Below, piece after piece: positions 56,143 through 58,250 of a DNA stretch of 64,000 bases; position 1 is the first letter of the stretch; every line of letters begins with the position of its first letter. The notes beneath the pieces were generated by a model, which saw only the letters and a program-made list of their open reading frames with translations, had not been told where the DNA came from and made no database searches. Source of the stretch: Hyphomicrobiales bacterium (GTDB lineage: Bacteria; Pseudomonadota; Alphaproteobacteria; Rhizobiales; JAJFHR01). The DNA is taken from the NCBI GenBank assembly GCA_021775475.1, contig JAJFHS010000041.1, forward strand, positions 62,001 to 126,000, read 5' to 3'. The position numbers and the translations under genes were made by a program.

Positions 56143-56949
56143 GTGAAGAAGAAAATTGAAACAAGCGTTTTAAATCAAGGTTTGAGTATGCTGCGTGTTG
56201 TCTGGATAGCTTTGTCTTTTTGCCTGATGCAGGTTGTGAACGCCGAGGCCAAAAGCCCGCTGATAGCCGCTGCCTCCAGTTTGCGCTTTGCCATGCCCGA
56301 GCTGGAACAGGCGTTTATTGCCACAGGCGGCACAAACTTACGGGTTAGTTTTGGCTCATCAGGCAATCTCAGCCGTCAGATAATGCAGGGTGCACCGCAC
56401 GAGCTGTTTCTGTCGGCAGATACAGCTTATGTGACAGCCTTGATAGACAAAGGCCTGACAAAAGATAGGGGTGCCATTTACGCCTATGGCCGTCTTGCGC
56501 TGATCACGGCCAAAAACTCCGGTCTTGAAGTCAAACCCGATTTTGCAGGCATCCGGACAGCACTTGCTTCAGGTCGCCTCAAGCGCTTCGCCATCGCCAA
56601 CCCTGAACATGCCCCTTACGGTCGCGCCGCCAAAGAGGTTTTGGAGAAAATCGGCCTCTGGAAGAAAATCCGGCCTTTTTTGATTTTAGGTGAAAATATC
56701 TCGCAAACAGCCCAGTTTGCCATTTCATCGTCGGCCCAGGGCGGGTTGGTATCTTACTCGCTGGCTCTGGCACCGGTTGTTGCGGCAAAGACCAAACAGG
56801 TTCAAATACCCATGTCCTGGCATCAACCGTTAAAACACCACATGGTATTGCTCAAAGGGGCGGCCAAAGAAACTGTGGCTTTTTATCAGTTTATGCGCTC
56901 ACCTAAGGCGCAGGAAATTCTGTCACGTAACGGATTTTCAAAATTTTAA
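56143..56949 (+). CDS. modA: Molybdate ABC transporter substrate-binding protein
   Basis: 'LIAAASSLRFAMPELEQAFIATGGTNLRVSFGSSGNLSRQIMQGAPHELFLSADTAYVTAL'. Confidence 0.93.
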   Translation: MKKKIETSVLNQGLSMLRVVWIALSFCLMQVVNAEAKSPLIAAASSLRFAMPELEQAFIATGGTNLRVSFGSSGNLSRQIMQGAPHELFLSADTAYVTALIDKGLTKDRGAIYAYGRLALITAKNSGLEVKPDFAGIRTALASGRLKRFAIANPEHAPYGRAAKEVLEKIGLWKKIRPFLILGENISQTAQFAISSSAQGGLVSYSLALAPVVAAKTKQVQIPMSWHQPLKHHMVLLKGAAKETVAFYQFMRSPKAQEILSRNGFSKF

Positions 56950-56959
56950 AAAGGTTTTC

Positions 56960-56990
56960 TTGACACCGTACTATAGTACAGACATTAGGT
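56960..56990 (+). promoter_or_regulatory. MerR-family (mer-type) promoter/operator
   Basis: TTGACA-CCGTACTATAGTACAGACA-TTAGGT: 19-bp spacer containing CCGTAC-N4-GTACaG dyad in the same register as PmerT. Confidence 0.8.
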
Positions 56991-57037
56991 TGATAGTCGA
57001 AAAGATCGTCAAAACTGCCAGCAATGAGTTCGTACAA

Positions 57038-57874
57038 ATGAGAAATTTTTTTCTAGCGGCAGCCCTTACCGTCACCATGGCGATTGGCATCAACACGCCG
57101 CTCCTGGCCCACGGGCCTTTGTTCAGCCCGGCGCCGGAAACTATCTTTAAAGACGGGACACAGTTAACGTTTGGCTTCGATACCGAGAAAGCCTCAGGCG
57201 CTGGCGTAAAGCAAAGAGATTATAAAACCACCATTGAGGCCAACTATGGCCTGACTGCGGATTGGGAAATCGGAATTGAGGCTCCTTATTCATGGAAGCA
57301 GCAGAACGGTGCCAAGGCCAACGGTTTCGGTGACATTTCTCTCGACACAAAATATCAGTTCTGGGGGCGCAATCTGCCTTCAGCGCAATATAAGGCAAGT
57401 GCGTTGCTCAAGGTCAAACTTCCGACCGGTAAAGATAGTACCACACCGCGGCTGGGCAGCGGATCGACAGATGTAACTGCCGGGTTGGTAACAGGATATG
57501 AATCACGGCGCTGGTACTGGTTTGCCAGCGGCGTTTACAAAGCGAATGGCGAAGGTGCGGGCAACCTTACCAAGGGTGATCAGCAGTCTCTTAATCTGGT
57601 TGGCGGTGTACGTCCGGTTCTTACCAATTACAAAGAACCTGACACAGTATTGATGCTCGAATTGAATTGGGAAAATTCGAGGCGTGATGACCTGGCAGGC
57701 GTGTCACTTGCCAACACCGGAGGCTGGGAATTGTTTGTCTCTCCGGTGATCTGGTGGACCTATCGGCAAATTGCCGTTCGCGGCGGTGTTCAAATTGCAA
57801 TTGCCAACGACCTTAATGGCAACCAGCCGACAACCGATTATCGCGGGCGCACTGAACTGGTTTACCATTTTTGA
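57038..57874 (+). CDS. Signal-peptide-bearing beta-barrel 'transporter' (MetA-pathway/phenol-degradation-like outer-membrane family)
   Basis: MRNFFLAAALTVTMAIGINTPLLAHGPLFSPAPETIF..., alternating amphipathic strands, C-terminal aromatic ...ELVYHF; ATG 57038 preferred. Confidence 0.8.
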   Translation: MRNFFLAAALTVTMAIGINTPLLAHGPLFSPAPETIFKDGTQLTFGFDTEKASGAGVKQRDYKTTIEANYGLTADWEIGIEAPYSWKQQNGAKANGFGDISLDTKYQFWGRNLPSAQYKASALLKVKLPTGKDSTTPRLGSGSTDVTAGLVTGYESRRWYWFASGVYKANGEGAGNLTKGDQQSLNLVGGVRPVLTNYKEPDTVLMLELNWENSRRDDLAGVSLANTGGWELFVSPVIWWTYRQIAVRGGVQIAIANDLNGNQPTTDYRGRTELVYHF

Positions 57875-57950
57875 ACGTAAATACCATGGTTGAATAATTT
57901 TCTAATTGGGCAGAGGACTTATATTCAAGTCAGAAAAACGAGGAACTCTT

Positions 57951-58250
57951 ATGATTAAAATCCTTCGAATAGCAGCTTTTGCAACTGTCCTTGTGCTGCC
58001 TGTGACAGCTTCTGCGGCGAAGAAGCAGTATCAACTTCTCGTCGATGGACTGGCATGTCCGTTCTGCGCCTATGGTATCGAGAAAAAACTCACCCAGACC
58101 AAAGGCCTTGAAAACATTGATATCGACATCAACGCCGGGACGGTGACGGTTACCATGGCCAAGGGTGTTTCCATGTCGAAGGCGCAAGCCAGTCGGATCG
58201 TCAAAGATTCAGGATTTACCCTGCGCGCTTTCACCAAATTAGCGAAGTAG
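57951..58250 (+). CDS. Periplasmic heavy-metal-associated (HMA) domain protein, CPFC motif
   Basis: Signal peptide then 'QLLVDGLACPFCAYGIEKKLTQTKGLENIDIDINAGTVTVTMAKG'; ATG 57951. Confidence 0.88.
   Translation: MIKILRIAAFATVLVLPVTASAAKKQYQLLVDGLACPFCAYGIEKKLTQTKGLENIDIDINAGTVTVTMAKGVSMSKAQASRIVKDSGFTLRAFTKLAK

Follow-up and report, generated by a model that had tools for sequence, protein, structure and literature searches.

The window analyzed here, a 64,000-nucleotide stretch of a Hyphomicrobiales genome, carries a two-gene unit between modA and a convergent pair of transporter genes. The locus comprises the following features.

56188-56949, plus strand: modA (above the cut-off of TIGR01256), upstream of the promoter
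56960-56965, plus strand: -35 hexamer TTGACA, kept as TTGAC[AT] in orthologous loci
56966-56981, plus strand: MerR-type operator dyad CCGTAC-TATA-GTACAG, adjoining the -35 hexamer within the 19-bp spacer
56985-56990, plus strand: -10 hexamer TTAGGT, separated by 19 bp from TTGACA, a spacing shared by orthologous loci
57038-57874, plus strand: barrel-1, a 278-residue protein with a signal peptide and a PF13557-like outer-membrane beta-barrel
57951-58250, plus strand: a secreted HMA protein of 99 residues with a CPFC motif (PF00403, 30.8 bits, above the cut-off)
minus strand, convergent with the unit: genes for an ABC ATPase and a permease, taken to be modC and modB on account of their position

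The promoter and its two genes

An earlier note on this DNA had described a signal-peptide barrel (57038-57874) and a periplasmic HMA protein with CPFC (57951-58250) between modA and modC, preceded by TTGACA-19 bp-TTAGGT with CCGTAC-TATA-GTACAG in the spacer; both the genes and the promoter were borne out. The spacer between TTGACA and TTAGGT reads CCGTACTATAGTACAGACA, and its 19 bp fall within the 19 to 20 bp that separate the -35 and -10 hexamers of MerR-activated promoters. By hand count, 23 of 31 positions agree with the mer promoter quoted in that note. The published signal of proteobacterial MerR proteins is the palindrome TCCGTAC-(4)-GTACGGA in a 19-bp spacer (PMC1526738; PMC11049809), and ACCGTAC-TATA-GTACAGA of the window has its 6-4-6 core with one half-site change. 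The dyad pattern CCGTACNNNNGTACNG had a single exact site within the 64-kb window. In 300 rounds of dinucleotide shuffling of the 300 bp upstream, the dyad score of 16/17 was never reached; this generic score covers a single geometry and does not pick up the CadR/PbrR-like promoters at three loci considered below (L036, L038, and L039). An ordinary sigma-70 scan, with spacers of 16 to 18 bp, detected no promoter upstream of barrel-1, as expected because the window promoter is stretched to 19 bp. It is very improbable that the palindrome arose by chance and that the pair is transcribed by readthrough from modA or from another promoter. The modA gene does end 11 bp before the -35 hexamer, with no terminator-like site seen in between, but the shuffles, the lack of an ordinary sigma-70 promoter before the barrel gene, and the retention of the dyad in genomes where the neighboring genes differ all argue against this possibility.

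Analyses of the barrel family revealed matches to PF13557 (Phenol_MetA_deg) in eight of nine aligned barrel-1 orthologues (E <= 0.01) and a score of 33.1 over a cut-off of 22 for L030; barrel-1 of the window itself had no match. Its structure model, of modest confidence (pLDDT 59), has 12 to 13 strands, and a fold search with it yielded weak matches to 12-stranded barrels or channels (TM-scores about 0.3). A profile search of solved structures with the barrel returned nothing meaningful, and the model supports no more than the designation of a predicted outer-membrane barrel. Thus far, the protein resembles the PF13557/COG4313-type channels through the family matches of its orthologues and its weak fold matches, but unlike them it appears to be under MerR-type control, and no phenol genes were seen beside it. 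We also noted a His-Gly-Pro sequence just past the likely signal-peptide cleavage site (AxA-H), whose histidine, His25 (57110-57112), is invariant in nine of nine aligned barrel-1 proteins. As the mature N-terminal residue, it could be a metal ligand.

The HMA protein is similar to MerP in having a signal peptide and one HMA domain with a CxxC motif. It differs from MerP by its CPFC sequence, its pairing with a barrel, and its score with the MerP model TIGR02052 (27.8, for a cut-off of 92.55), which sets it outside that family, and a separate merP is present on contig C76. In relatives, orthologues of the HMA gene likewise adjoin barrel-1. The unit does not have the merA and merT genes that together would make it a mer operon, as the promoter is followed only by the barrel and HMA genes. 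No merR, merT, or merA had been noted in the window, and indeed the MerR matches, merA, and merT of this genome are all on other contigs.

A candidate regulator on contig C33

The genome assembly (3.86 Mb, 94% complete) yielded eight matches in a MerR_1 profile search, none of them on the contig of the window. A search for the whole-promoter pattern with at most three mismatches gave three matches over the 3.86 Mb, for one with the reversed-pattern control. Both non-self matches belong to one merR locus on contig C33 and lie within approximately 3 kb of the merR gene.

L009:6504-6920, minus strand: C33 merR, flanked by the genome's only other sites of the window-operator type

C33 merR has its own dyad, CTGTAC-TTAA-GTACGG. 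One of the two neighboring promoters, with CCGTAC-TATG-GTACGG, precedes the genes for a 133-residue membrane protein and a P1B-ATPase. The other, with GCGTAG-TATA-GTACGG, precedes those for a second CPFC HMA protein (HMA-2), a second barrel (barrel-2), and an NHL propeller. In the shuffle test, the row for HMA-2 started inside its promoter since a GTG start had been chosen; it is not counter-evidence, and the site was seen otherwise. Barrel-2 is 26% identical to barrel-1 over 305 residues. With the merR dyad, the two C33 promoters, and the window site, what appears to be a single regulon thus has four operators, of which the window promoter is one.

The earlier note had proposed that a MerR protein encoded elsewhere acts on the window promoter in trans and had suggested searching the genome for such a regulator and for further operator copies. 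Both searches were fruitful: a fitting MerR is encoded on C33, and the genome has just two further sites comparable to that of the window, both beside the gene for this MerR, which supports the proposal. Only the description of the window cassette as an orphan was wrong, as C33 carries a paralogous HMA-barrel unit behind a promoter of the same type. Considering all the sequence comparisons, it is highly likely that the window promoter is MerR activated and controlled in trans by the C33 MerR.

In regulons of the CueR or GolS type, one MerR-family regulator controls scattered targets that include a P1B-ATPase and envelope proteins. The apparent C33 regulon similarly has targets in several places, among them a P1B-ATPase and envelope proteins, but here the operator and regulator belong to the Hg MerR branch, with PF13557 barrels and CPFC HMA proteins as the targets. 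The CueR regulon is treated in PMC1526738. In P1B-ATPases adjoining C33-type MerRs, the sequence GYPCALG replaces the usual CPC motif (L009:3682-5946, minus strand; L055:7689-10181; L061:4483-6882). This sequence of the C33 P1B-ATPase is shared by the Leisingera and Manganitrophus neighbors of the same MerR clade; a literature search on such a P1B-ATPase motif (YPC) retrieved no relevant paper.

The genome also harbors a classic mer operon, merR-merT-merP-merA, on contig C76 (MerA, 549 bits, above the cut-off). Control of the window pair by the C76 MerR would make the pair a part of that classic system, and this regulator is indeed present, with true mercury genes as neighbors. However, the merTPA operator, CTGTAGGGAGTACAG, is a 6-3-6 dyad unlike CCGTAC-N4-GTACAG, and the C33 and C76 MerRs fall in different branches of a phylogenetic tree. 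In a relative, G017, the two types even occur side by side, a C33-type merR with CCGTACCATGATACGG beside a C76-type merR-merTPA with CTGTAGTCGCTACAG, i.e., two regulators, each with its own operator type. The window promoter belongs with the C33-type operators rather than the C76 kind, making control by the C76 MerR improbable. The unit is thus distinct from the classic mer operon, as had been stated, with merTPA on C76 having a different MerR and a different operator.

Conservation and gene order in relatives

Orthologues of barrel-1 were found at nine loci in the named-genome collection. A CCGTAC-type promoter with a 19-bp spacer is present at seven of the nine (L046, L047, L048, L051, L052, L053, and L054), either before the barrel-HMA pair or before a merR gene that opens its operon, and in each of the seven its score was reached by 0 of 300 shuffles. 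L046, which its length and sequence suggest to be the same contig as in the same-genus genome G002, is the sole orthologous locus with mod neighbors, and the mod setting is therefore incidental. Conservation had been suggested as a check of the promoter, and the dyad and 19-bp spacer proved to be kept before orthologous pairs even where mod genes are absent. A function tied to molybdate was considered and rejected, as orthologues outside the genus sit away from mod genes.

The gene order is merR-barrel1-HMA-barrel2-NHL in L048 and merR-thioredoxin-like-barrel1-HMA-barrel2-NHL in L047, so that in both cases merR opens the operon of the barrel. L049 (L049/L081) is cut short by the contig end shortly before barrel-1, and a terminal piece of a C33-type MerR (36 residues, 53%) is found there. 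A C33-type merR with 51 to 63% identity occurs in seven of the nine genomes with barrel-1. Two details of these loci were also recorded. A small gene for a thioredoxin-like protein (GCxxC, VPAVVIDG, CC) follows merR in several of them (L047:4641-4910, L068:1172-1438, and L070:1196-1465), and the barrel-1 frame of L048 has an in-frame stop (2735-2745) before EEPDTVLMLELNWE, representing an assembly error or a broken gene.

In one of the nine genomes, G105 (L050), we found no MerR more than 39% identical to the C33 type and no CCGTAC-type promoter. Instead, it has TTGACC-TGGAGCCGGGTCCAGCCTG-TACAAA, with TTGACC-TGGAGCCGGCTCCAGCGGC-TAATCT on the opposite strand; this is a different MerR-type dyad, and the spacing is 19 bp here too. 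In L050 (4700-5050) and L116 (411-441), a CTGGAG-N4-CTCCAG dyad with a 19-bp spacer precedes the same gene set, apparently as the result of an exchange of the switch. At L036, L038, and L039, related barrel-2 units adjoin other MerR-family genes, with TTGACC-type promoters bearing AGTAACTACAAGG (read by eye), which we take to be CadR/PbrR-like. Related HMA-barrel units under other MerR types are a counterpoint to the reading developed here.

Close homologues of barrel-2 (at least 45% identity) are few among 289 genomes of the class (L086 to L090). They stand with HMA genes and mostly with NHL genes, three of them with a C33-type merR. Distant PF13557 proteins in the same 289 genomes were found without such HMA, NHL, or merR company, and a plasmid search with the barrel gave distant Legionella matches only.

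The promoter architecture, a fitting regulator, shared operators, their conservation, and cis linkage in relatives are thus established at the level of sequence. Very probably, the barrel-HMA pair has become detached from a metal defense set that is under MerR control.

The metal and a model for the envelope unit

A maximum-likelihood tree placed the C33-type MerRs with the mercury MerRs of Tn501 and ANA-3 (support 100/99), apart from CueR, ZntR, and CadR/PbrR. The merR promoters of plasmid-borne clade members bear the same dyad as the window, in favor of its control by the C33 MerR. Cys81, Cys116, and Cys125 of the C33 MerR have the same spacing as the mercury ligands of Tn501 MerR, residues 82, 117, and 126, and thus form the three-cysteine signature of Hg(II)-responsive MerRs. 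The first of these positions is a serine in the copper sensor CueR. The C33 MerR scored 136.2 with TIGR02051, below the curated cut-off of 150.85. This cut-off is strict, as the C76 MerR, encoded with merTPA, also falls short (135.3), and we do not file the C33 MerR as a member. In comparison with the Tn501/Tn21-type mer systems, the window has the same 19-bp spacer and CCGTAC-N4-GTAC dyad beside the -35 hexamer, and its regulator belongs to the same branch with the same cysteine spacing. Unlike those systems, its promoter drives barrel and HMA genes rather than merTPA, merR is on another contig, one half-site ends in CAG, and the TIGR02051 score of the regulator does not reach the cut-off.

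The link with mercury is closer than the earlier note thought, because a relative has the HMA-barrel-NHL genes inside a merF-merA operon. In that genome (G313; L115:3327-7797, minus strand), merF-merA-HMA-barrel2-NHL form one run, with merF and merA above curated cut-offs, and in G017 the module abuts merTPA. Taken together, the sequence data lean toward Hg(II) as the main inducer of the window promoter. Control by the C33 MerR in response to Cu, Cd, Pb, or Zn, the mercury links being incidental, is a less probable but substantial alternative. Plasmid-borne members of the C33-type clade are accompanied by genes for P1B-ATPases, CcdA, MFS, DUF411, and multicopper oxidases, copper-type genes among them, and sister units are under other MerR types; against this stand the position of the C33 MerR among mercury MerRs, the spacing of its cysteine triad, and the merF-merA and merTPA neighbors in relatives.

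MerR-family regulators bound to their dyad repress the promoter, and with metal they untwist the spacer so that RNA polymerase can open it. Without metal, the C33 MerR would occupy the CCGTAC-N4-GTACAG dyad and hold RNA polymerase at the spacer, which at 19 bp is longer than usual. The inducer, a divalent metal with affinity for thiols and most likely Hg(II), would bind Cys81, Cys116, and Cys125, and the metal-bound MerR would twist the spacer, leading to production of barrel-1 and the HMA protein. The window pair would be the moved half of a merR-barrel1-HMA-barrel2-NHL set, with the other half (HMA-2, barrel-2, and the NHL propeller), the P1B-ATPase unit, and merR remaining on C33, where they have operators of the same kind. 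The P1B-ATPase may export metal from the cytosol into the periplasm, where the CPFC HMA proteins may hold it, and the barrel may be the outer-membrane pore of this relay, passing metal across the outer membrane. Whether the role is envelope efflux or sequestration, we give this proposal even chances.

Alternatively, the C33 MerR might control an uptake route, with the HMA protein in the place of MerP and the barrel admitting mercury to the periplasm for MerT or MerF and reduction by MerA. We consider this unlikely: although merA is present in the genome of the window, and no separate MerP was seen between merF and the HMA gene in the G313 run, the regulon in the window's genome includes a P1B-ATPase and not MerA, and merP is already there with merT and merA. 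The reading as a whole, i.e., a moved operon half under the C33 MerR, probably responding to Hg(II) and handling metal in the envelope, appears likely.

MerR regulons as such are already known; what is new is a split envelope unit under trans control. A literature search for the HMA-barrel-NHL gene set and CCGTAC found nothing relevant, and "undescribed" is used here in the sense of not found in the literature searched. With somewhat less than even confidence, we propose that the CPFC HMA protein, the PF13557 barrel, and the NHL propeller together constitute an undescribed arm, in the outer envelope, of resistance to mercury or another soft metal, which is switched by MerR-family proteins with several types of operator and is located inside mer operons or in scattered units controlled in trans. 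To our knowledge, mercury resistance centers on MerT/MerP uptake and MerA reduction, and an outer-membrane part is not standard. If our reading is true, the Hg-type switch would in some Alphaproteobacteria also govern an outer-membrane barrel and metal-binding proteins of the periplasm. It would then also be possible for such an operon to be split and its parts nevertheless to share one regulator by means of operator copies.
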